Source: Elusimicrobiota bacterium
GTDB taxonomy: Bacteria; Elusimicrobiota; Elusimicrobia; UBA1565; UBA9628
Assembly (NCBI GenBank): GCA_003151975.1
Contig: PLZD01000059.1
Location: 7,380 to 59,096 of the forward strand
Direction of reading: 5' to 3'
Length of the DNA: 51,717 nucleotides
The notes under the pieces are model-generated. The model searched no databases and was not told the DNA's origin. It saw nothing but the letters and a program-made list of their open reading frames with translations. A program made the translations under genes and the position numbers. Shown in pieces: positions 14,407 through 40,420 of this stretch. Numbering within the stretch: the stretch's first letter is position 1; each line of letters begins with the position of its first letter.

Positions 14407-14551
14407 TCGCATTTCCTCCAGTCCGGCAGTCCGGAACTTGAAGTCGCGCTCAAAGGTGCAACCCAAAATAACAATTAGCCTCCAAACTGGCAAGAACTAT
14501 TTTGCCCGAAAGACCTATTATTTTAGGGGGCCCTTAGACCCATAAAACGAA

Positions 14552-15658: not shown

Positions 15659-15714
15659 TGGACCTATACGAGGATGGGACTAAAGGCCTATATTAAAATA
15701 GGCCAAAAGGACTA
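15659..15714 (-). repeat. Degenerate 8-nt tandem array upstream of paralogue 2
   Basis: Read on the minus strand in steps of 8 from 15714, the octamers are TAGTCCTT, TTGGCCTA, (TTTTAATA), TAGGCCTT, TAGTCCCA, (TCCTCGTA) and TAGGTCCA. Five of seven match TAGGCCTN closely and all five are in exact 8-nt phase. The array ends about 40 nt upstream of the -10 box. A related array lies at 38939-39002. Confidence 0.6.
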
Positions 15715-22904: not shown

Positions 22905-24404
22905 GTGAGAGGGTCATGGTTCAAGCGGGATTTGCCTCTGGCGGCCGCGTGCGCCTTTGTCTTATCCGCTCTGATGGTGCCGCTGGCCCTGCACCTTAAA
23001 TTCGACTACGACGAGTGGCTCGAGTTTCACGCGATCTGGCAGGTCGGCGCGGGCCACAAGCCTTACGTCGATTTCTACTTCGCGCGCCCGCCTTACAATT
23101 GGCTGGCTTGGGCGCCGGTCCTCAAGCTGCTGCCCGAGAAGCTCGAGTCGCTCGTGTGGCTGAGGCTCGGGAATCTTGTTTCGTCTTTTCTGGCTCTGGC
23201 GCTTTGGCTTTATGCGGCGCTTACGCGTTCGTCCGACCGGTCATGGAAAACCTGCGCTCTTGCCGCGACGGCGCTCGTCGTCCTGCAAGTCCCCGTGATC
23301 TTCACCTTCGCGCAATTTCGGCCGGACCACTTCGTTTTGGCGACGGCTATGCTCGGCTTGATGCTCATGGAGAATCCTCGGCCGGCGCGTTGGGCCGCCG
23401 CGGGCGCGTTGTTCAGCACGGGCTTGCTGCTGACGCCCAAGCTCATCCTCATCTATGGGGCCGCGGGGCTCCTCTTCGGTTTGGACCTGTGGAAAACAGA
23501 CAGGAAGCAAGCGGCGCGCTGTTTGGGTTCGCTTATCGCAAGTTTCGCCGCGGCGTTTTTGATCGTCAACGCGGCCACGATGGCTTGCGGCATCGACCTC
23601 GGGCCGTATTTCTTCGGCGTGATCGAGCGGCATCTCGCCGCGACGGCGCATTCCGGCTATCGGTTCGGGTTGGCGCGCATGATCATTTTGCGTACGGCTT
23701 ACAATCCGCTCTGGCTGCTCATTTTCGCGGGGGGGACTTACGCTTCGGTCGCGGAATTCCGCGAGCACGGCTGGCGCAGAAACAAATTCATGCTCGTGAT
23801 GCTGATATTCGCGGTGGTTCAGCCTCTGTGGGTCAAATATTTCTACGACCAGTATCTTTACACCGTCCTGCTCGTTTGGAGCCTGCCGCTGGCGCTCTTC
23901 CTTCATCGCGCTGGGAAGTGGCGAAGTCAGTCGGCGCAGGGAGCGCTGGCCGTCCTTCTGCTGGCGGGAGTCTTTCACGCCTTGCCGGAGTTTCTTGATT
24001 TCCGGCGCGACCGGCTCGGCATGGAGGAGGACGTCGCGATCGGCGACAAAATATTGGAGCTGGCTCCCGAGGGCCGGCCCGTCGCGATGCAGCCACCGCG
24101 CCACCCGGTCTTCCGCGAGGACTCGACTTTGTTCATCGACCACTCACTCACGCCCGGAGGAGGTCCCGTGACGGAACAGCTGATGAGCGGCTCCTTGATC
24201 TACGCGAAGAGCTTCAGCTACGAAGGCTATCTCGAGCAGCTCCAGCGCCGTCCGCCGAGCGTGATCTGGGTCAACACGATGTTCACGGGACCCGAATATC
24301 GCGCCGCGATCGACCAATTCACGCGCGTCCTTCATCCGAAGGACTACGAAGCGCGGGACGTCTTCGGCGTCTCGGTCCTGGTCCGACGCGCTACCAGACC
24401 CTAG
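22905..24404 (+). CDS. GT-C (ArnT/PMT-like, GT39-type) membrane glycosyltransferase
   Basis: 499 residues with about 9-11 TM segments. The first periplasmic loop has FDYDEWLEFHAIW and PYVDFYFARPPYNW, the acidic catalytic loop typical of lipid-linked-sugar glycosyltransferases (GT39/ArnT-like). The C-terminal 130 residues form a periplasmic domain. It would move a sugar from a polyprenyl-phosphate donor to lipid, protein or glycan. GTG 22905 is set by the bidirectional promoter. An in-frame start at 22857 lies before it. It overlaps the end of the convergent M13 gene by 14 bp. Confidence 0.82.
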   Translation: MRGSWFKRDLPLAAACAFVLSALMVPLALHLKFDYDEWLEFHAIWQVGAGHKPYVDFYFARPPYNWLAWAPVLKLLPEKLESLVWLRLGNLVSSFLALALWLYAALTRSSDRSWKTCALAATALVVLQVPVIFTFAQFRPDHFVLATAMLGLMLMENPRPARWAAAGALFSTGLLLTPKLILIYGAAGLLFGLDLWKTDRKQAARCLGSLIASFAAAFLIVNAATMACGIDLGPYFFGVIERHLAATAHSGYRFGLARMIILRTAYNPLWLLIFAGGTYASVAEFREHGWRRNKFMLVMLIFAVVQPLWVKYFYDQYLYTVLLVWSLPLALFLHRAGKWRSQSAQGALAVLLLAGVFHALPEFLDFRRDRLGMEEDVAIGDKILELAPEGRPVAMQPPRHPVFREDSTLFIDHSLTPGGGPVTEQLMSGSLIYAKSFSYEGYLEQLQRRPPSVIWVNTMFTGPEYRAAIDQFTRVLHPKDYEARDVFGVSVLVRRATRP

Positions 24405-26892
24405 CGGGCGCCGGGTTGACCATCGCATCCCCGGCCTGGCACGAGAAGGCCTGCGAGAACTCCGACATGTTGGACAGCGTGCCGTCGACGCGAAACTGCG
24501 AGGGCGGGTGCGGGTCGAAGGCCTCGAGGCGCGCGGCCTGGTCGGTCTGGTTTTCGCACCAGATCTGGCCGAAGCCAAGGAAGAATCTCTGCGCCGGCGT
24601 GAAGCCGTCGATCTTCTGCCCGGGCTGGCCGGCCTGCGCCTTCATGTAGGCGGCGTACGCGAGGCGAATGCCGCCGTTATCCGCCGTATTCTCGCCCAAG
24701 GTCAGCGCGCCGTTGACGTGCACGTCTTTCTTGGGATCGCCGCCCGGGTCCTTGGCGATGACGAACTTCGAGTACTGGTCGACGAGTCCTTTCGAGCGCT
24801 TCTCGAAGGCGTCTTGATCGGCCGGAGTCCACCAGTTGTTCAGGTTGCCCTTGCCGTCGTACTGATGGCCCTGGTCGTCGAAGCCGTGCGTCAGCTCGTG
24901 GCCCTCGACGGCGCCGATCGCGCCGTAGTTGGCCGCCGGATCGGCCTTGTCATCGTAGAACGGCTTCTGAAGTATGCCCGCGGGAAAGTTGATGTTGTTG
25001 TTGGCGGGGTCGTAGTACGCGTTGACGGTGGGCGGCGTCATGCCCCACTCCTTGCGGTCGGCGGGCTTGCCGATCTTGGCCAAGTCGCGCTTGGTCTCCA
25101 TTGCGGCCGAGCGGTCGATGTTGCCCAAGGCGTCGGTCTTGGAGATCTTGAGCTTAGAGTAGTCGCGCCACTTGTCGGGGTAGCCGATCTTGTTGGTCAC
25201 CTCGGAGAGCTTCTCGAGCGCCTTCTTCTGGGTCGGCGGGCTCATCCAGGCGACGCCCTTGATGTCGTCCTGCATCGCAGATTCGATCTCGCCGATCATC
25301 GCGAGAGCCGCGTCCTTGTCCTTGCCGTCGAAAGCCTGCTTGACGTAGTCGCGGCCCAAGGCGTCGCCCATGATGCCGTCGGCTTGGCCCACGCAGCGCT
25401 TCCAGCGCGGCTTCTGCTGCTTCTGCCCCGCGAGGCGCTTGCCCCAGAACGCGAAGTTCTCGCCGTCGAAGGCCGACGAGAGCATCGAGGCGCGGCCGTG
25501 GATGACCTGCCAGCGCAGGTACGATTTCCACGCCGAGAGCGGCGTGGAGGTCAGCACCGCATCGAGTTTCTGGAAGTACGGCATCGTGTTAACGTCGATC
25601 TGGACCATCTTGGGCGCCCCGAGGGCCTTGAAGTACGCCGCCCAATCGAAGGAAGGGGTGAGCGCCTCGAACTTGGAAAGCGGCGTCTTGGCGTGCGTCA
25701 GGTTCGGATCTCGGAGGCTGACGCGGTCCATGGAGATCGTCGCCAGGGCGGTTTCGACCGCGACGACTGCGCCTGACTCGGTCGCAGCTTCCTTTTTCGT
25801 GTCTCCCGCAAGCTCGAACATCTTCGCGGCGTGCTCGCCGTAGGCCTTCAGGTCGTCCTTGTGCGAGTCCTCGAGGTAATAATCCCGGTCGGGCAGCGAG
25901 TAACCGCCTTGGCCGATCGCGGCGATGTTCATCGTCGCGTTCTCGAAGTCCTGCTCCGAGCCGAAGCCGAAGATTCCGCCGAAACCCTTCGCGTGCATCT
26001 TGCCGAGCTGGGCCGCGAGGCCTTTGAGGCTTGAAAGGCTGCCGACTTTGGCGAGATCGGGCTTCAAGGGGGCCGAGCCTTTTTTCTCGATGGCCTTTTG
26101 GTCCATGCAGGCCGCGTAGATCTCGCCGAGTTTTTTCTCATCCGCGTCCTTCGCCGTGGCCGCGGTGGAGGCTTTCTCGAGGATGTCCTTGAGGATGTTC
26201 TGGTTGCGCTCGTGCAGCTCGGAGAATCGGCCCCAGCTCGACTGGTCGGACGGGATCGGATTGTTCTTGAGCCACGAGCCGCAGGCGTATTGATAGAAAT
26301 CGGCGCAGGGACTGACCGCGTGGTTGATGGCGGAAAGCTCGACTCCTGAACTCGGAGCCTTTGCCAGGGCGGGAGCGGCCCCGGGCTTCCCGGGCGCTCC
26401 GGCGGGCGGCGCGGCCACGACGGGACCTGCGACCGAGCCTGCGGCATGGTTCTGGTCGTAGAATTTGTTCTGATCGCCGACGACAAGCGCTGCCGGGAGG
26501 CTCGCCGAGACGGTCTTGGCGACTTCGTCGGCGGAGATCTTGCGCGCGGCGGCGGAGCCGTCGCCGGCGTTGGTCAGCGCGGTTTGAATCGTCAGCTTGT
26601 CGCCCCACGTCCCGGTCAGTGAATCTAAAGTTTCCTTCCTTCTGTTCGTGTCGACCTTGGCCGACCAGCCGGCCGCGGTGATCTTGACGACGGGTCCGGG
26701 CAGGACCTCGCGCGTCGAGGGCTCCGCAAGAAGCTCGCCGATGGCGAGCTGGGCGGCCTTGGCCTTGGCGTCGGTGTCGGGATTCTGGGACGGCGAGAGC
26801 TTGAGAGTGACGGTGATCTGGGGCGCTGCGGCAAAGGAAGAAACGGCGAGTCCTGCGGCCAGCATGAGGGTTAAGGGGGCGTTGATTTTCAT
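24391..26892 (-). CDS. Exported M13 (neprilysin/PepO-like) zinc metallopeptidase
   Basis: 833 residues, longer than the usual 650-700 because of an N-terminal extension of about 160 residues after the signal peptide (MKINAPLTLMLAAGLAVSSF). The extension contains a SIMPL-like beta/alpha pattern. The M13 part begins near SGVELSAINHAVSPCADFYQYACG. The active site is complete: HELTH (665-669), then GENTADNGG with the third zinc ligand, plus NNINFPAGIL upstream. It cleaves oligopeptides outside the cytoplasm. A promoter at 27059-27064 drives a transcript starting at a purine-type riboswitch 95 nt upstream. A second -10, TATCAT (26905-26910), sits 12 nt before the ATG and could give a riboswitch-free message. 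Confidence 0.94.
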   Translation of the reverse strand: MKINAPLTLMLAAGLAVSSFAAAPQITVTLKLSPSQNPDTDAKAKAAQLAIGELLAEPSTREVLPGPVVKITAAGWSAKVDTNRRKETLDSLTGTWGDKLTIQTALTNAGDGSAAARKISADEVAKTVSASLPAALVVGDQNKFYDQNHAAGSVAGPVVAAPPAGAPGKPGAAPALAKAPSSGVELSAINHAVSPCADFYQYACGSWLKNNPIPSDQSSWGRFSELHERNQNILKDILEKASTAATAKDADEKKLGEIYAACMDQKAIEKKGSAPLKPDLAKVGSLSSLKGLAAQLGKMHAKGFGGIFGFGSEQDFENATMNIAAIGQGGYSLPDRDYYLEDSHKDDLKAYGEHAAKMFELAGDTKKEAATESGAVVAVETALATISMDRVSLRDPNLTHAKTPLSKFEALTPSFDWAAYFKALGAPKMVQIDVNTMPYFQKLDAVLTSTPLSAWKSYLRWQVIHGRASMLSSAFDGENFAFWGKRLAGQKQQKPRWKRCVGQADGIMGDALGRDYVKQAFDGKDKDAALAMIGEIESAMQDDIKGVAWMSPPTQKKALEKLSEVTNKIGYPDKWRDYSKLKISKTDALGNIDRSAAMETKRDLAKIGKPADRKEWGMTPPTVNAYYDPANNNINFPAGILQKPFYDDKADPAANYGAIGAVEGHELTHGFDDQGHQYDGKGNLNNWWTPADQDAFEKRSKGLVDQYSKFVIAKDPGGDPKKDVHVNGALTLGENTADNGGIRLAYAAYMKAQAGQPGQKIDGFTPAQRFFLGFGQIWCENQTDQAARLEAFDPHPPSQFRVDGTLSNMSEFSQAFSCQAGDAMVNPAPARVW

Positions 26893-26950
26893 ATTGATCA
26901 AACTATGATACCTCGCTCAATCGAATTCGCTCTGGGTCTTAGAGCCGCAC

Positions 26951-26979
26951 TCGGGCGCGGTCTTTGGACCCACGCCCGA
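26951..26979 (-). other. Hairpin in the M13 leader, possible expression platform
   Basis: Strong stem with outer arms TCGGGCG / CGCCCGA and inner GGTC / GACC around a CAAA loop (minus-strand reading), 7 nt after the aptamer's P1. No T tract follows, so it is not a plain terminator. The plus-strand riboswitch copy is also followed by a CAAA-looped hairpin. Confidence 0.5.
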
Positions 26980-26986
26980 ATAGTTC

Positions 26987-27051
26987 TCCTGGTGACGCCG
27001 GCTTGGGCCCGGCGGTGGAGGCTCCCCGACCTGATCTCGAGGATTACAGGA
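26987..27051 (-). promoter_or_regulatory. Purine-family riboswitch, probable 2'-dG-II class, copy before M13 peptidase
   Basis: Three-way junction in 65 nt. P1 is TCCTG/CAGGA and P2 is TCCTCGA/TCGGGGA with loop GATCAGG. P3 is CGCCGG/CCGGCG with loop GCCCAAG. J1/2 is TAA, J2/3 is GCCTCCAC and J3/1 is TCAC. Positions 22-72 align without gaps to the B. subtilis xpt guanine aptamer (L2 32-38, J2/3 46-53). G37 and G38 of the loop-loop contact are kept and C's are available in L3. U47 and U51 are both C, the changes linked to 2'-deoxyguanosine binding. A TATACT box ends 7 nt before P1, so the transcript begins at the aptamer. The family fold is well supported. The exact ligand is inferred. Confidence 0.8.
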
Positions 27052-27058
27052 TCGTTCA

Positions 27059-27064
27059 AGTATA
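27059..27064 (-). promoter_or_regulatory. -10 box of the riboswitch-M13 transcript
   Basis: TATACT on the minus strand, 7 nt before the first base of P1 and between the histidine kinase stop and the aptamer. A -35 match is weak (CTGGAA, 27082-27087, 17-bp spacer). Confidence 0.65.
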
Positions 27065-27098: not shown

Positions 27099-28208
27099 CT
27101 AGGCGCGAGTAGGACTTTGGTCCTGGGCGGCCGGCAGGCTGAACGAGAACCGCGAGCCCGAGTTCTGGCTGCTCTCTATGTCGAGGCGGGCGCCGTGACT
27201 GGCGAGCATGTCGCGCGCGGTCTTGAGGCCGAGCCCGAAGCCCGCGGCCATCTTCTTTCCCCGGGAAGAGCGAGTGAAGCCTTTGAGGGCTTCCTCTTGT
27301 TCCTCGGGGCTCATGCCGATGCCGTTATCCGAGATCGAGAAAAGCACGGCGATCGGCGGCTCGCCCGAGGGCTTGAGCTCGACCGCGACGCGTCCGCCGG
27401 GGCGCGTGTACTTGATCGCGTTGCCGATGAGATTGGTCAGGACGAGGTGCAGGGCGTCGGGGTCGGCGCGGACAAAGAGGGGCCGGGGCGGAAGTTTCAC
27501 CGACATTTCCATCTTTTTCTGCCGCGCCGAGGACTCGATCACGGCCAGCGCGGAGCGCGCCAGTTCCGCGGCGTCGACCCGCCGGATCTCGAGCGCGAAG
27601 TGCCCAGATTCCATGCGCGCCTCGTTAAGCAGGTTCTCGACGTCGCGCTTGAGGCTTGTGATGTTGCGGTGCAGGACGTCGTACATCTCCGCTTGATGAG
27701 GCTTGGGCTCGTCGCCCATCTCCTCTTCGAGCACGAAGATGGCCATGCCCATCGTGGTCAACGCGTTGCTGACCTCGTGGCTGACGATGGAGAGCATGTC
27801 GCTCTTTGTCTGCGCCCGAGCCTTCTCGAGGACGATGTCGGATTCCAGCATCGAGACCAGCAGAGCGACGGCCAAAAAAATGGAGAGGCAGAGCGCGGCG
27901 TTGATCAATGAGAGCTGGAGAGGCGTTAGATTCCAATCGGTCAGCCACAGCTGGTCCGTGTAGAAATTCCAGTAGTCGGACGCGAACCAAGTCGCCGCCG
28001 CGAGAATCGAAACGGAAAACCCGGCGAGCCGCCCGCAATAGCGCGCCGCGAAAGCGACGGGGATGATGTAGAAAAAATCGAAGTTGTATTCCTTGCTCGA
28101 TCCGTGATGGAACAGGCCCACGAGCAATAGAATCAGGAGGCCGAGCCCCAGCGAGACGCGGGGCGAGCGGTCGAGCCAATCATCCAGGGCAAGCGTAAAT
28201 TTCGGCAT
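27099..28208 (-). CDS. Membrane sensor histidine kinase (paralogue A)
   Basis: 369 residues. Three or four TM segments (about 19-120) with little periplasmic sequence form a MASE-like input. HisKA follows with H144 in SIVSHEVSNAL. The HATPase domain has an N-box LIGNAIKYT, G1 DNGIGM and G2 GFGLGLKTA. The phosphotransfer and ATP sites are complete. No response regulator is adjacent. The protein shares layout and the SHE-x-x-NA H-box with the kinase at 49400. It lies 53 nt downstream of the MurU-like gene on the same strand, so it may be co-transcribed with the cell-wall recycling pair. Confidence 0.92.
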   Translation of the reverse strand: MPKFTLALDDWLDRSPRVSLGLGLLILLLVGLFHHGSSKEYNFDFFYIIPVAFAARYCGRLAGFSVSILAAATWFASDYWNFYTDQLWLTDWNLTPLQLSLINAALCLSIFLAVALLVSMLESDIVLEKARAQTKSDMLSIVSHEVSNALTTMGMAIFVLEEEMGDEPKPHQAEMYDVLHRNITSLKRDVENLLNEARMESGHFALEIRRVDAAELARSALAVIESSARQKKMEMSVKLPPRPLFVRADPDALHLVLTNLIGNAIKYTRPGGRVAVELKPSGEPPIAVLFSISDNGIGMSPEEQEEALKGFTRSSRGKKMAAGFGLGLKTARDMLASHGARLDIESSQNSGSRFSFSLPAAQDQSPTRA

Positions 28209-34212: not shown

Positions 34213-35253
34213 ATGCGACCCCTCGCACCGCGCATTGCGCTGTTAGCCGTTTCCTGCCTTTGGATTCCTGCCTCCTGCTTCGCCTGGTCCCACGACGAGC
34301 ACAGCGCCATCGCCGACCGCGCGATGACGTTGCTCCAGCAGCAGAACTCGCCCGCGGTGACGGCCATCGCGCAGATCCTTCCCGCGGGCGCGACTCTGGC
34401 GTCGATCGCGCCTTGCGCCGACGACATCCGCCACCCTCCGAAGGGCGCCGGTGCGACCACGACTTGCGGCGGCCTGACTTTGGCGTGGAACTCGGCGAGC
34501 GAACCCTGGCATTTCATCGACGAGCCGGTCTCCGAGAATCCGGCGAGCGCCTCCGACATGCAGAAATATTGCGCCGGAGGCAATTGCATCATCGGCGCGT
34601 TTCATAACCAGCTGCAAATACTGACGGGAAAGGCGCCGGGCGACAAGGCCACGGCCCTGATGTTCGTCGTGCATCTCGTCGGCGACGCGCACCAGCCTCT
34701 GCATTGCGCCACCCAGCTGGTCCTGGATTCCAGCGGCAATCCTCAGCCCGATCCCAAGCGCCCGGGAAAAATGCTCAGCGACGGCGGCGGCAACGCCAAG
34801 GCGGTCTCGATCCCGGGCACGACCCCGAAGTATCCGCTTGAAATGCACTCGCTTTGGGATCAAGACATGCAGGCCGCGGACGTCCCGGGCATAGACTTGT
34901 CGGGCGCTTCTTGGCAAAGCCTCGATCCGGGAACGACGCCTGACGCCGTGGTCGCCCAGGCCGCGTTCGAGAGCTTCGGCATCGCCCGGACGGTGATCTA
35001 CCCGAACTACACCGATTCAAACGCCGCGAACAATCCCGACGCCATGCCGCTCGCCTCCGACGGCGTCACGCGGATCGTGACGCCGAAGTATCAGTCGGAC
35101 ATGAGGGGGCTCGCCGAGCTGCGCCTGCAGTTGGCCGCGGTCCGCCTGGCGGCCATACTCGACAACGCGTTGGCCGGCGCGCCCCAGACGGGGTCTGCGC
35201 CCGCGCAAAGTCTGGGCTCGGGAAAGGGAGCGGCGGTCAGGACGCCATGGTGA
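34213..35253 (+). CDS. Secreted S1/P1 nuclease (copy 1)
   Basis: 346 residues with a signal peptide ending FA, so that mature protein begins with W25, whose main chain is a zinc ligand in this family. Other ligands are visible: H30, a D in APCADDIRH, H in PWHFIDEP, H and D in VVHLVGDAHQPLHC, and H/D in MHSLWDQD. S1/P1 enzymes cut single-stranded DNA and RNA and have 3'-nucleotidase activity. A 60-residue insertion (DPKRPGKM..) sits before the DGGGNAKAV segment. The second copy follows after 4 nt, so they form an operon under the leaderless promoter at 34201. Confidence 0.94.
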   Translation: MRPLAPRIALLAVSCLWIPASCFAWSHDEHSAIADRAMTLLQQQNSPAVTAIAQILPAGATLASIAPCADDIRHPPKGAGATTTCGGLTLAWNSASEPWHFIDEPVSENPASASDMQKYCAGGNCIIGAFHNQLQILTGKAPGDKATALMFVVHLVGDAHQPLHCATQLVLDSSGNPQPDPKRPGKMLSDGGGNAKAVSIPGTTPKYPLEMHSLWDQDMQAADVPGIDLSGASWQSLDPGTTPDAVVAQAAFESFGIARTVIYPNYTDSNAANNPDAMPLASDGVTRIVTPKYQSDMRGLAELRLQLAAVRLAAILDNALAGAPQTGSAPAQSLGSGKGAAVRTPW

Positions 35254-35257
35254 AACT

Positions 35258-36253
35258 ATGAAAATCGCTACCAAGTCGGGGCGAGCGGCGCTGGCGGCGT
35301 TGGTGCTGTTGTGGCCGCAGCTCCTGATGGCTTGGTCGGAAAACGGCCATCGCATCGTCGGCCAGATCGCGCAGGATTTGTTGACGAAGGATCCCGGCGG
35401 CGCCAACGCCATCGCCGGCATCAAGGACGTGATGGGCGCGAGCTACGGCCCGAACGCCCTGGCCAACATCGCGCCCTGCGCGGATTTCGTGCGCCACGCA
35501 AACGAGGACGGCTCGGCGGTCCCCGATGCGGGGGGCACGATCAACTGCGGCGGGCTGACCATCCCCGTCGAACCCGAGAGCGCGCCCTGGCATTTCGTCG
35601 ACGTGCCGATTACCGAGTCGGCCGACTCGGTCGGGAATTTTTGCGGCGCGAAGGGCTGCGTGATCAGCGCGATCTCAAACGCCGTCTCCGTCCTGCAGAC
35701 CAGCGCCGTGCAGGCCGACCGGCAGAAGCAGTTGATGTATCTCGTGCACTTCGTGGGCGATGCGCATCAGCCTCTGCATTGCGCCTATGCCGTCCTTTCG
35801 GACGGCAGTCCCGACCGCGGCGGCAATTGCGAGCACATCCGCTACGGCGGCAAGTCGATGGCCTTCCACGCGTTGTGGGATCATCGGCTCAACGCGGCGG
35901 ATGCGCCCAATTGGCAAGCGGAGGCGCAGCGGTTGGAGGGCGGCGCTTCGGTTCCGACCGTCACGAACGCGGGCGCTGTCGCATTGCAGGCGGCCACCGA
36001 AAGCTTCCAGGACGGCCACGACGTCATGAACGAGTTCCTGCAGCTTCCCAACGCCGCAGCCCAGCAGTGTACGAGGACTCCGGGCCAGCGCATTCCATCG
36101 GTCGTCCTGCCGGACGGTTATGAGGGCCAGTATGCCGCCAAGATCGACGAGCGCCTGCAGATGGCGGGCGCTCGGCTGGCGGGGCTCTTGAAGCTCGCCT
36201 TCGGCGGCAACGGCCAGGCGCCGCGGATTATCTCAAGGGCTGTGGCGCCTTAA
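35258..36253 (+). CDS. Secreted S1/P1 nuclease (copy 2)
   Basis: 331 residues; same family as the upstream gene but clearly diverged. The signal peptide ends MA before W26. Ligand motifs are H31 (WSENGHRIV), APCADFVRH, PWHFVDVPI, LVHFVGDAHQPLHC, DRGGNCEHI and FHALWDH. All nine zinc-ligand positions appear to be present, so it should be active on nucleic acids outside the cytoplasm. Six cysteines suggest disulphides. Its 3' end overlaps the convergent PLC-like gene by 26 bp. Confidence 0.94.
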   Translation: MKIATKSGRAALAALVLLWPQLLMAWSENGHRIVGQIAQDLLTKDPGGANAIAGIKDVMGASYGPNALANIAPCADFVRHANEDGSAVPDAGGTINCGGLTIPVEPESAPWHFVDVPITESADSVGNFCGAKGCVISAISNAVSVLQTSAVQADRQKQLMYLVHFVGDAHQPLHCAYAVLSDGSPDRGGNCEHIRYGGKSMAFHALWDHRLNAADAPNWQAEAQRLEGGASVPTVTNAGAVALQAATESFQDGHDVMNEFLQLPNAAAQQCTRTPGQRIPSVVLPDGYEGQYAAKIDERLQMAGARLAGLLKLAFGGNGQAPRIISRAVAP

Positions 36254-37610
36254 GCCCGGCCAACGCCGGGAGCGAGAACCGCAGGTACTTCTCCGGGGAG
36301 CGGCCGACGTTTCCCACGGCATCGGACGCCGACACTCGGAATCCATAGAGTCCTCCGCCGGCGGGCGCGGCGAACTCCGTAGAGGCTCCCTGAGGCTTCG
36401 CGTCGACGGTCCGCCAATCCGTCCAAGAATTTCCGTTCCAGCGCCGGTACTCGAACCGGTAGCTTCTCCGGTCGACGCCGCTTTGCGCGTCAACGGCTGA
36501 GGCATGCAGGATCACGCGCTGGATCGAGGTCTGGTCCGGGCTCTTGGGATCGGAGGAATTCAGGGAATCCAGCTTGACCTCGGGCGCCGTGTGATCGATC
36601 TGCTTGAAAAAGTAGACGAACAGCGCGGCGACCCGTTTGTAGGCCAACGGCATCAAGACGCGGCCCTCTTCCTTGAGCTGCGCCTCCTTGAAGTGGGTCT
36701 TGCGGCGTCGCCCGCGATCCGCATCGCCGTCGACTCCCAGAAGGCCGGGGCCGTTGCCCGCGTCATAGTGGTGCGTGATCTCTCCGGTCTTGCGGAAAAT
36801 CTCATAGAGCGTCGAAAATGATTCGACGGGCCCTTCCGGCACTTGAAGCCACTCGGCGTAGTGGTCTCCCATGTAGGACTCGTACATGTCGGAGTTGTGG
36901 AAGGGGTGCGCCCAGAGCAGGTTGTGCGCGGGAACGGTCAAGTCTTCGAGGAGATGCGCGACGTGGCCGAGATACCAGTAGGCCTTGGCCTTGTCTCCTT
37001 TCCTATATAAAGACAGGACGCCGAGGCCCTTGGTCCCGCGGTGCGCGCCGGAATTGTCGCTCCAGTCCTTATCGTACTTGCCGTTGATGCCGTAGCCGCC
37101 GGACCAATACTTGTGCGCCCTGTTCACGGAACTGTCGAAGCCGAGCCAGCCGGCGTAGTCGCCCTTTTTGTAGTTCCAGAAATGCCGGTTGAACGACATG
37201 ATGTCGTTGAAGGGGTTGAGGTTGGCCTTGTCCTCTTCGTAGGAGCCGGAGATCACGGTGTTGTGGCCTTCCCCGGGCTTGTCGCCCGAGATGCCGCCGA
37301 TGAAGCTCTCCAGTTCTCCGCCCTCGTATTGGGCCGCGTACATCTCGTAGGCCGTGCGCGTGATGTGCATGTGCGCCACAGTGCTGTGCTCGGCTTCGAC
37401 GGGCTTGTTCGGGTCGTCGGTCGGCTCCGACGGCGGCTCGTCGGCCGGAGCGGCGGCCACCGGCGGCAGCGCCGGCGCGCCTTCGTCCTTGACCTGCGCC
37501 CAATCGGACTTGAAATAGTTTTCGCGCAGGGATGACCCGCTCGTCTGGATCGCGGCGAAAGAAACGGTCGAGAGGAGAAGGGCCAGGGCGGAGAGGGCGA
37601 TTTTTTTCAT
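36228..37610 (-). CDS. Exported zinc-dependent phospholipase C-like protein with C-terminal Ig-like domain
   Basis: 460 residues with a signal peptide (MKKIALSALALLLSTVSFA). Residues about 75-345 show the zinc phospholipase C / S1-P1 fold. It has HMHITRTAYEMY with an early His, LGHVAHLLEDLTVPAH with the central zinc cluster (H..H...ED), then HYAEWLQ. Residues about 350-455 are an Ig/FN3-like domain (SAVDAQSGVDRRSYRFEY), often used to bind surfaces. Probable substrate: phospholipid or another phosphodiester. Shine-Dalgarno AAGGAGG lies 9 nt before the ATG, in contrast to the leaderless neighbours. Confidence 0.85.
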   Translation of the reverse strand: MKKIALSALALLLSTVSFAAIQTSGSSLRENYFKSDWAQVKDEGAPALPPVAAAPADEPPSEPTDDPNKPVEAEHSTVAHMHITRTAYEMYAAQYEGGELESFIGGISGDKPGEGHNTVISGSYEEDKANLNPFNDIMSFNRHFWNYKKGDYAGWLGFDSSVNRAHKYWSGGYGINGKYDKDWSDNSGAHRGTKGLGVLSLYRKGDKAKAYWYLGHVAHLLEDLTVPAHNLLWAHPFHNSDMYESYMGDHYAEWLQVPEGPVESFSTLYEIFRKTGEITHHYDAGNGPGLLGVDGDADRGRRRKTHFKEAQLKEEGRVLMPLAYKRVAALFVYFFKQIDHTAPEVKLDSLNSSDPKSPDQTSIQRVILHASAVDAQSGVDRRSYRFEYRRWNGNSWTDWRTVDAKPQGASTEFAAPAGGGLYGFRVSASDAVGNVGRSPEKYLRFSLPALAGLKAPQPLR

Positions 37611-37630
37611 GCGTGCGGCCTCCTTGTTAT

Positions 37631-38896
37631 TTATGGGACCATCGGGTCATCGGTGAAGAGCTGGCCGGCGATGGCGCGCGCGGCTCTTTCCGCGGCGGTG
37701 ACCTTGTGGCTCAGAATGCGCCGGCTTTGCCGCAGATCGGGCTCGAAGAGCTTGGCGTTGACCGTGGACGCCAGGCGGGCGTCGGTGGCGACGATGTTGA
37801 GCTCGTCGTTGTGGACCAGGCTTCGGGGATCGAGATTCGAGGAGCCGAAGGTGGTCCAATAGTCGTCGATGACCGCGACCTTCTCGTGCGCCATGCGGTT
37901 CTGGTATTCGTAGACCTCGGCGCCCGCCGAGAGCAGGTCGGGATAGAAGGCGCGCGAGGCGTCCTGCATGAGCTTGATGTTGTTCTTCGCCGGCAAAACG
38001 ATTTGGACTTTCACTCCGCGGCGCGCGGCGGTCTCCAGAGCCTTAATGACGCCCGCGTCCACGAAGTAGGGGTCCGCGATGCGGATGAGCTTCTGCGAGG
38101 TCGCAAACGCCGCGAGATACGCGCGCCGGATGTTCTGATCGTGGTCGGCGCCTAGGTGCGCGACGACGCGCGTCTGCGCGCCGTCGGGCTGGTCGGCCGA
38201 GGGGGGCAGCAGGTTCTCACCCGGCTCGGTCGTTCCGCCCACCGCTTGCCACTGCGAGAGAAACGCCTTCTGGAGCAGGGCCACCGCGGGTCCCCGGATC
38301 AACGACTGCTGATCGTGCCATTGCTCTTGATAAGTCTCGCCGATGTTCATGCCGCCGGTAAATCCGATGAGCCCGTCGACGACCATGACTTTGCGGTGGT
38401 CCAGGTGCGTGTCGAGCGGCGGCGCGGGGCGCACCAGCACATGCACGCCTTCGCCGCGCAGATAGCCGAGGAGCGCTTTGACGTCTTGGTGGTCCGTGTT
38501 CGAGCCCTTGGCGTCGAGCAGCACGCGCACGCGCACGCCCCCAGCGGCTTTTTTCGCCAGCACGCGGGCCAGCGACCAGCCGATCTTGTCGGCTTGATAT
38601 TGGAAGACTTCGATGTGGATCGAGTTGCGGGCGCCCGAGACCGCGGCCAGCGCCGGAGCCATGACCTCGCGGTCGACGAGAAAATCGATCGAGTTCTTGC
38701 CCGCGTTTTGTGCGCCCGCGGATGCGTCGATGTAGGCGAGATATCCAAGCCAGTCGCCGGGCGTGAACACGGGCTTGGCCATAACCGCAATGGTCGGCGC
38801 GCCGCGTTGGAACTTGAAGGCGACCGGGCTCGGCGCCCAGTCTTGCGCCGACGCCGTCGCGCCGATCACGAGCAAAAAGGAGGCGATCATCCTCAC
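37631..38896 (-). CDS. Exported PLD-superfamily protein (cardiolipin synthase-like, two HKD motifs)
   Basis: 421 residues with a short signal peptide (MRMIASFLLVIGATASAQ). HKD motif 1 is HRKVMVVD with GFTGGMNIG after it, and motif 2 is HEKVAVID with FGSSNLDPRS. This pairing matches cardiolipin synthase-type PLDs, but such enzymes are normally membrane-bound and cytoplasm-facing. Export suggests a secreted phospholipase D or nuclease role. GTG 38896 lies 6 nt after TAGACT (38903-38908, minus). ATG 38890 is also possible. The PLC-like gene follows after 20 nt but has its own Shine-Dalgarno. Confidence 0.87.
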   Translation of the reverse strand: MRMIASFLLVIGATASAQDWAPSPVAFKFQRGAPTIAVMAKPVFTPGDWLGYLAYIDASAGAQNAGKNSIDFLVDREVMAPALAAVSGARNSIHIEVFQYQADKIGWSLARVLAKKAAGGVRVRVLLDAKGSNTDHQDVKALLGYLRGEGVHVLVRPAPPLDTHLDHRKVMVVDGLIGFTGGMNIGETYQEQWHDQQSLIRGPAVALLQKAFLSQWQAVGGTTEPGENLLPPSADQPDGAQTRVVAHLGADHDQNIRRAYLAAFATSQKLIRIADPYFVDAGVIKALETAARRGVKVQIVLPAKNNIKLMQDASRAFYPDLLSAGAEVYEYQNRMAHEKVAVIDDYWTTFGSSNLDPRSLVHNDELNIVATDARLASTVNAKLFEPDLRQSRRILSHKVTAAERAARAIAGQLFTDDPMVP

Positions 38897-38938
38897 TTCG
38901 CGAGTCTAGCAAAAGCCGAAATGAAGGGAAAGAGGAAA

Positions 38939-39002
38939 TAGGTCGTTAGGCCTATGTCATTCTAGGCCCTTAGGGACTTGCGGCCTGGGCCTTTTAGGCT
39001 AT
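38939..39002 (+). repeat. Degenerate 8-nt tandem array over the riboswitch promoter
   Basis: TAGG occurs at 38939, 38947, 38963, 38971 and 38995: spacings 8, 16, 8 and 24, all multiples of 8. In phase the octamers are TAGGTCGT, TAGGCCTA, (TGTCATTC), TAGGCCCT, TAGGGACT, (TGCGGCCT), (GGGCCTTT) and TAGGCTAT. Consensus TAGGCCTT. The last unit overlaps the -10 box, so a protein bound here would directly affect transcription. Confidence 0.65.
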
Positions 39003-39005
39003 CCT
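38978..39005 (+). promoter_or_regulatory. Promoter of the riboswitch-HKD nuclease transcript
   Basis: -35 TTGCGG (38978-38983), 16-bp spacer, -10 TATCCT (39000-39005). The aptamer P1 begins 7 nt later at 39013, which should be the transcription start. The -35 resembles that at 31160. Confidence 0.65.
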
Positions 39006-39012
39006 CATGACA

Positions 39013-39077
39013 TCCTGTAATCCTCGAGATCAGGTCGAGGAGCATCCACCGCCGGGCCTAATCCGGCGTCACCAGGG
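39013..39077 (+). promoter_or_regulatory. Purine-family riboswitch, probable 2'-dG-II class, copy before HKD nuclease
   Basis: Same 65-nt architecture as the minus-strand copy at 26987-27051. P1 is TCCTG/CAGGG and P2 is TCCTCGA/TCGAGGA with loop GATCAGG. P3 is CGCCGG/CCGGCG with loop GCCTAAT. J2/3 is GCATCCAC and J3/1 is TCAC. The copies differ at only five positions. Two are in stems and keep pairing (P2 U-A versus U-G, P1 U-G versus U-A); the rest fall in J2/3 and L3. In xpt numbering positions 47 and 51 are C and 74 is C, as expected for a guanine-base ligand with a deoxyribose. J3/1 is two nt longer than in xpt. Ligand assignment is inferred. Confidence 0.82.
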
Positions 39078-39099
39078 GATAAAGGCCGTCGTAGGGCCG

Positions 39100-39148
39100 G
39101 CTTCTCTGGCAAACCATGAGAAGCTTCTCTGAGGAGGACTATCTCATG
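39100..39148 (+). other. Possible translational expression platform before the HKD nuclease
   Basis: Hairpin GCTTCTCTGG-CAAA-CCA-t-GAGAAGC (39100-39124). Its 3' part CATGAG (39115-39120) is also complementary to CTCATG (39143-39148), which contains the start codon and would enclose the Shine-Dalgarno GAGGAGG (39131-39137). The two folds exclude each other, as expected of a riboswitch that gates translation. This is a reading of the sequence, not a calculated fold. Confidence 0.45.
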
Positions 39149-40420
39149 AAGAAGATGCAACCGGTCGGGAAGCTCGCCGCAGCCGCACTTCTCGCCTTGC
39201 TGGTTCCCCAAGCAACGATGGCGGCCGACATGTCGGCGTTCCTGGAGAATCTCGATCTCGGCAAGAGCGGGGTCTTCTCGGATATCTCGACGGTCCGCGC
39301 GCCCAAAGCGCCGTGGAGCCCCTCGCATACTCCCGCGCGTCCGCCGCAGCCCAAGCCCGCCCCCAATCCCGGCGGCGGCTCGAGCGCCGGAAGCGTTTCG
39401 CTCAACGGGACGACTCTGCCGAGCTTCATCTTCACGGGCCGCGGCGGCGACGTCTCGGCGCAAGTCGCGGCCGCGATAGACGCGTCCCGAATCTCGGTGA
39501 ACGTGGCGCTCTACACGCTGACGCTTCCTAATGTGGCCGACTCGCTGGTGCGCGCCAAACAGCGCGGCGTGGCCGTGCAGGTCGTCTACGATTTCGGTCA
39601 CTCATCGAGCGCGGGCGGCGCGAGCGTCGGTTCGCAGCCGAGCGCGGGAGCTTCCGAGAAGATCGGCCAGCTGCTCTCCGCCGGCATACCCGTTCGCGTC
39701 CTGCGCGGCTCGGGCCCCTACGGCATCATGCACAATAAATTCGCCGTCATCGACGGCCAGCTCGTCGAGACCGGTTCGTTCAACTGGACGACGGCGGCCG
39801 ACACGAAGAACCACGAGAACGCGTTGTTTCGCACGGACGGAAATCTGATCGCCGACTATCAAGCGTACTTCGATTGGATGTGGCGCCAGGCCGGTCAGGC
39901 CGGCGGCGGCTCGGCTCCCGGACCGACGGGCACCCCGCCGTCCTGCGCCGACGGCCCGTCGGCTCTCGGCCGGACATGGCCCGAATGTTCGTTCTCTCCC
40001 GGCGGCCCCACCGAGGCGCTCATCGCGCAGGCCATCGGCTTGGCCAAGACGCGCGTGCACATCGCGATGTTCAGCTTCACCTCGCCGTCGATCGTGCAGG
40101 CGATCATCGCCGCGAATAACCGCGGCGTCGACGTTATGCTCGTCTTCGACCGCCTGCAGGCGAAGACCGAGGCGGGCCTTAAACCCCTGCAGGACGCGGG
40201 CGTGCCTTATCGCTTGAACTCGGGACTCGGCGGCAGCGGCGGCGTGCTGCACGACAAGTTCGGGCTCTTTGACGATCTGCTCGAGACCGGCTCGTTCAAC
40301 TATACGACCAACGCGAGCCAGAACAACTTCGAGAACGCGTTTTTCTCATCGGCTTCGTCGGACCTGGACGGCTACGAGTCGGAGTTCCAGGCGATCTACG
40401 CGGAGGGATCGAACTCCTAG
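39146..40420 (+). CDS. Secreted tandem-HKD PLD-superfamily nuclease/phospholipase
   Basis: 424 residues: signal peptide (MKKMQPVGKLAAAALLALLV), a Pro/Gly linker (about 60-90), then two PLD repeats. Repeat 1 has HNKFAVID followed by TGSFNWT, and repeat 2 has HDKFGLFD followed by TGSFNYT. The MHNKFxxxD...GSFNWT form is that of the Nuc-like endonuclease branch rather than classic lipid-cutting PLD, so DNA is a likely substrate. The two repeats form one active site in such enzymes. Expression is probably gated by the 2'-deoxyguanosine-type riboswitch upstream. ATG 39146 has an ideal Shine-Dalgarno. The preceding in-frame ATG at 39116 lies inside the leader hairpin. Confidence 0.88.
   Translation: MKKMQPVGKLAAAALLALLVPQATMAADMSAFLENLDLGKSGVFSDISTVRAPKAPWSPSHTPARPPQPKPAPNPGGGSSAGSVSLNGTTLPSFIFTGRGGDVSAQVAAAIDASRISVNVALYTLTLPNVADSLVRAKQRGVAVQVVYDFGHSSSAGGASVGSQPSAGASEKIGQLLSAGIPVRVLRGSGPYGIMHNKFAVIDGQLVETGSFNWTTAADTKNHENALFRTDGNLIADYQAYFDWMWRQAGQAGGGSAPGPTGTPPSCADGPSALGRTWPECSFSPGGPTEALIAQAIGLAKTRVHIAMFSFTSPSIVQAIIAANNRGVDVMLVFDRLQAKTEAGLKPLQDAGVPYRLNSGLGGSGGVLHDKFGLFDDLLETGSFNYTTNASQNNFENAFFSSASSDLDGYESEFQAIYAEGSNS

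Follow-up and report, generated by a model that had tools for sequence, protein, structure and literature searches.

An element of 71 nt lies upstream of an M13 metallopeptidase gene in a 51,717-nucleotide stretch of an Elusimicrobiota genome, here called the window. It raises two questions: is it a genuine riboswitch aptamer, and does it control the peptidase as part of a wider response? We take up identity, leader anatomy and the genes behind related copies in turn.

The aptamer and its neighbour at 39 kb

Four features of the window define the locus and its closest counterpart.

26984-27054, minus strand: the element under study, a 2'-dG-II aptamer (W27)
39010-39080, plus strand: a second 2'-dG-II aptamer (W39)
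24391-26901, minus strand: M13 metallopeptidase (PF05649, PF01431) with a signal-like, hydrophobic N-terminus, starting at ATG 26892 or TTG 26901
39116-40420, plus strand: PLD-family protein, the target of W39, likely start ATG 39146 (PF13091 in two stretches)

A cmscan of the window matched both aptamers to the 2'-dG-II purine riboswitch model RF03165, W27 with 61.9 bits (E 2.1e-13) and W39 with 71.7 bits (E 1.6e-16). These scores are far outside chance expectation and agree with the original prediction on the place of W27 and on its riboswitch class. W27 exceeds the curated Rfam cut-off of 60 bits by a narrow margin and is the lowest scorer among the seven 2'-dG-II copies of the genome. Its predicted fold is the expected three-way junction of P1, P2 and P3, and its pocket matches the other copies at model positions 7-10, 36-39 and 63-65, with a sole departure from A to C at model position 34. 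The folding energy of the aptamer alone is ordinary (z -0.61); therefore, the case for W27 stands on the family model. The class is already known, and the W27 copy is new. The downstream gene was likewise correctly named an M13 metallopeptidase, with both M13 Pfam domains above cut-off (PF05649 at 417 bits, PF01431 at 232.5 bits).

Recounting the earlier span of 26987-27051 gave the five differences previously reported between W27 and W39 in 65 positions. The stem differences keep pairing, as had been claimed, but the further claim that two copies alone reveal selection on RNA structure is not supported. They are single wobble changes (U-A versus U-G in P2, U-G versus U-A in P1) that are one-sided and include no double compensation, so the W27/W39 pair alone tells little about structural selection. 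The two copies are 60/65 identical while their flanks are unlike, which supports selection on the aptamer. An alignment read by eye shows a compensatory exchange of A-U for G-C in P3 against the copy on contig C9, and among 112 unique aptamers most P2 and P3 pairs carry compensatory changes; 90.6% of cells are paired, a share that drops to 73.9% when partners are shuffled. In a hand alignment, the position matching U51 of the guanine class is a C in all 112 ungapped copies.

Promoters, leaders and the direction of switching

The sequences around the two aptamers contain the following elements.

27110-27125, minus strand: 16-bp dyad CAGGACCAAAGTCCTA, starting 71 nt upstream of W27 (matrix score 18.1, reached by 0 of 50 shuffles)
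38939-38954, plus strand: perfect dyad TAGGTCGTTAGGCCTA in the W39 promoter, found by sequence and matrix
15675-15714 and 14502-14517: further sites of the dyad in the window
27059-27064, minus strand: -10 box TATACT, 7 nt before the 5-bp P1 of W27
26949-26982, minus strand: strong independent hairpin predicted in the W27 leader, with no U tract after it
26905-26910, minus strand: candidate proximal -10 box TATCAT, preceded by a weak dyad; transcription from here could skip the riboswitch
39081-39149, plus strand: W39 leader, in which folds predicted with and without the aptamer enforced pair the P1 3' strand with UUCUCUGG and allow a second hairpin to hide the SD (39131-39137) and ATG 39146

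The dyad, TAGGNCYWWRGNCCTA, occurs 32 times in the genome versus 3 times for the reversed pattern, and is often repeated at steps of ~24 bp. With a matrix built from 29 sites that do not adjoin riboswitches, each of the seven aptamers of the genome has a dyad 69-75 nt upstream (start ~72 nt); the W27 site, CAGGACCAAAGTCCTA, has one mismatch to TAGGNCNNNNGNCCTA. Among the copies from four families of the phylum, the dyad precedes the aptamer in 50/74, 7/14, 4/9 and 30/40 cases (shuffle p <=0.02), counts that are not independent because the copies are related. Some relatives with small genomes, most of which have no such riboswitch, are likewise enriched in exact dyads. In this genome, most products of the genes that follow the dyad have signal-like N-termini; among them are GH25 lysozymes, an amidase, a transglycosylase and several proteases. 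By sequence, the dyad is common to the riboswitch promoters and to those of other putatively secreted lytic enzymes of the genome. Counted from the P1 start set in the original prediction, the -10 box does end 7 nt before P1 in both window copies (TATACT for W27; TATCCT at 39000-39005 for W39). Between 24 and 8 nt upstream of the aptamer, 47% of copies carry the pattern TANNNT; in control stretches the share is 4-11%. Family membership, the intact pocket, the common promoter architecture and the conservation of the aptamer between diverged flanks together argue that W27 is a true aptamer of the 2'-dG-II riboswitch class, with 2'-deoxyguanosine as its predicted ligand.

The direction of control can be read from the copies of the phylum as a whole. 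In 95 of 142 copies, the P1 3' strand is also part of a hairpin with a U tract behind it; shuffled leaders would give 10.1 such cases. Since P1 and the terminator have this strand in common, a ligand-stabilised P1 would break the hairpin, which makes the arrangement that of an ON switch. Adenine ON switches resemble this architecture, with the P1 3' strand within the terminator. The ligand should thus turn these genes on, a direction drawn from an anatomy that most phylum copies have and W27 does not. The W39 leader has no U tract; according to a single fold prediction, a strand would be released when P1 forms and could then expose the SD.

The anatomy of the W27 leader bears on a rival reading, in which W27 is a real aptamer without an expression platform, does not control M13 and is bypassed by a promoter at TATCAT. 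A search for an intrinsic terminator found no terminator-like site in the W27 leader, and its folds gave no recognisable sequestering platform or supported switch; both results agree with a bypass, as do the weak dyad (26957-26972, shuffle P 0.042) and the -10 box downstream of the aptamer. The association with M13 was moreover found at W27 only, with none of the other copies examined lying directly before such a gene. The same reading sits poorly with the conservation of the aptamer between flanks that are not conserved, and with an upstream promoter whose dyad occupies the same position as in the other copies. We consider a bypass unlikely, and control of M13 by W27 plausible from the sequence, with a confidence limited by the missing platform and by the uniqueness of the M13 association.

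Two further proposals for this gene were rejected. Pairing between aptamer and RBS as a translational switch was matched by 34 of 100 shuffled leaders. M13 genes are present in 40 of the 56 genomes of the order; conserved riboswitch control of M13 was discarded, as the riboswitch lies 7-10 kb from M13 and faces away in five genomes.

Distribution and target genes

Relatives do carry more copies, as the element was expected to have if real: a 2'-dG-II match is present in 38 of 56 genomes of the order and in 97 of 341 Elusimicrobiota genomes. A scan of public genomes with the aptamer pattern returned, among the matches listed, Elusimicrobia, Elusimicrobiota or Elusimicrobiales MAGs and entries named only 'bacterium'; the pattern had no match in viral contigs. 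A 2022 paper assigns 2'-dG-II to Bacteroidetes (PMC8872408). The matches within the phylum indicate that the class is widespread in Elusimicrobiota, which is a new result.

The seven copies of this genome precede genes for M13, PLD, an S8 subtilase, a phosphatase, GTP cyclohydrolase II, a receiver domain and a secreted HNH-like protein, the last with the motif EFDHLIPL..GG..NLWP read by eye. Across the phylum, the genes behind 143 copies were read. In other genomes, the targets include ComEC-like MBL proteins (eight fetched loci) as well as solute-binding proteins, and some copies precede small peptides accompanied by radical SAM genes. This picture is incomplete because many targets have no Pfam family. 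The targets are rich in secreted nucleases and proteases. Signal peptides are predicted in 104/142 targets versus 22/39 window genes, an enrichment too weak to carry the argument. Two targets of this genome, GTP cyclohydrolase II and the receiver domain, fall outside the secreted hydrolases and count against the main reading.

Several loci deserve mention in their own right. Fifteen fetched copies from another family of the phylum are followed by a small signal-like peptide ORF and then a radical SAM gene (L139, L141-L143, L145, L146, L149, L153, L154, L157, L161, L166, L167, L169 and others), and other copies precede small peptides paired with solute-binding proteins; these loci resemble clusters for modified peptides that would be under riboswitch control. 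The GTP cyclohydrolase II gene behind one copy of this genome (L079, 603-1256, plus strand) is followed by a glycosyltransferase gene and is an odd target for 2'-dG-II. The region around W39 (window 34213-40420) brings two PLD proteins (37631-38896 and 39116-40420) close to an S1/P1 nuclease (35258-36253), in what resembles a cluster of genes for secreted nucleases and lipases.

Taken together, we assign a probability of about 0.6 to the reading in which the M13 mRNA starts with the 71 nt of W27, a real aptamer and one of seven copies that raise mostly secreted hydrolases. These copies would sense 2'-deoxyguanosine, probably set free from DNA, and sensing would raise the expression of their targets. 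Control of M13 and a signal from lysed cells both gain weight from the nuclease and protease targets and from the ON anatomy, and a response to dead cells as food would fit the regulon. A role in deoxynucleotide homeostasis rather than sensing of outside DNA, as for 2'-dG-I of Mesoplasma, which precedes a ribonucleotide reductase gene (PMC8872408), could accommodate the GTP cyclohydrolase II copy but is very improbable, since the representative targets scanned included nucleases, proteases and ComEC-like proteins and no ribonucleotide reductase or nucleoside salvage gene.

More tentatively, the dyad and the lysed-cell signal may belong to a two-layer scavenging or predatory programme, in which a dyad-binding regulator would act at the promoters of secreted lytic enzymes, with 2'-dG-II ON riboswitches as a second layer on a subset of these genes, and DNA from lysed cells would raise nuclease, protease and peptide-maturation genes. 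The portion of the literature covered gave no link between Elusimicrobiota and predation.

Relation to known riboswitches

The wider regulon is more interesting than the W27 copy alone. Through it, a riboswitch class with little documentation gains a host phylum, a broad target set and a predicted direction of control, and it becomes testable whether free 2'-deoxyguanosine is a signal of lysed neighbours for bacteria that secrete lytic enzymes.

Previously reported 2'-dG-II targets are a receiver domain, a phospholipase D, ComEC and an endonuclease (PMC8872408). The copies described here resemble the known class (RF03165) in their covariance-model match, three-way junction, pocket residues and these target types. 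They differ in their host, Elusimicrobiota rather than Bacteroidetes, in an M13 target outside the published list (PMC8872408), and in that W27 has no recognisable expression platform. Guanine and adenine riboswitches, of the same Rfam clan, have the same three-stem-junction scaffold (PMC9295807); unlike them, the 2'-dG-II copies carry a C at the U51 equivalent, and W27 has no terminator. The 2'-dG-I riboswitch of Mesoplasma florum differs in host, target genes and sequence class (PMC8872408), and is expected to have its ligand in common with the copies described here.
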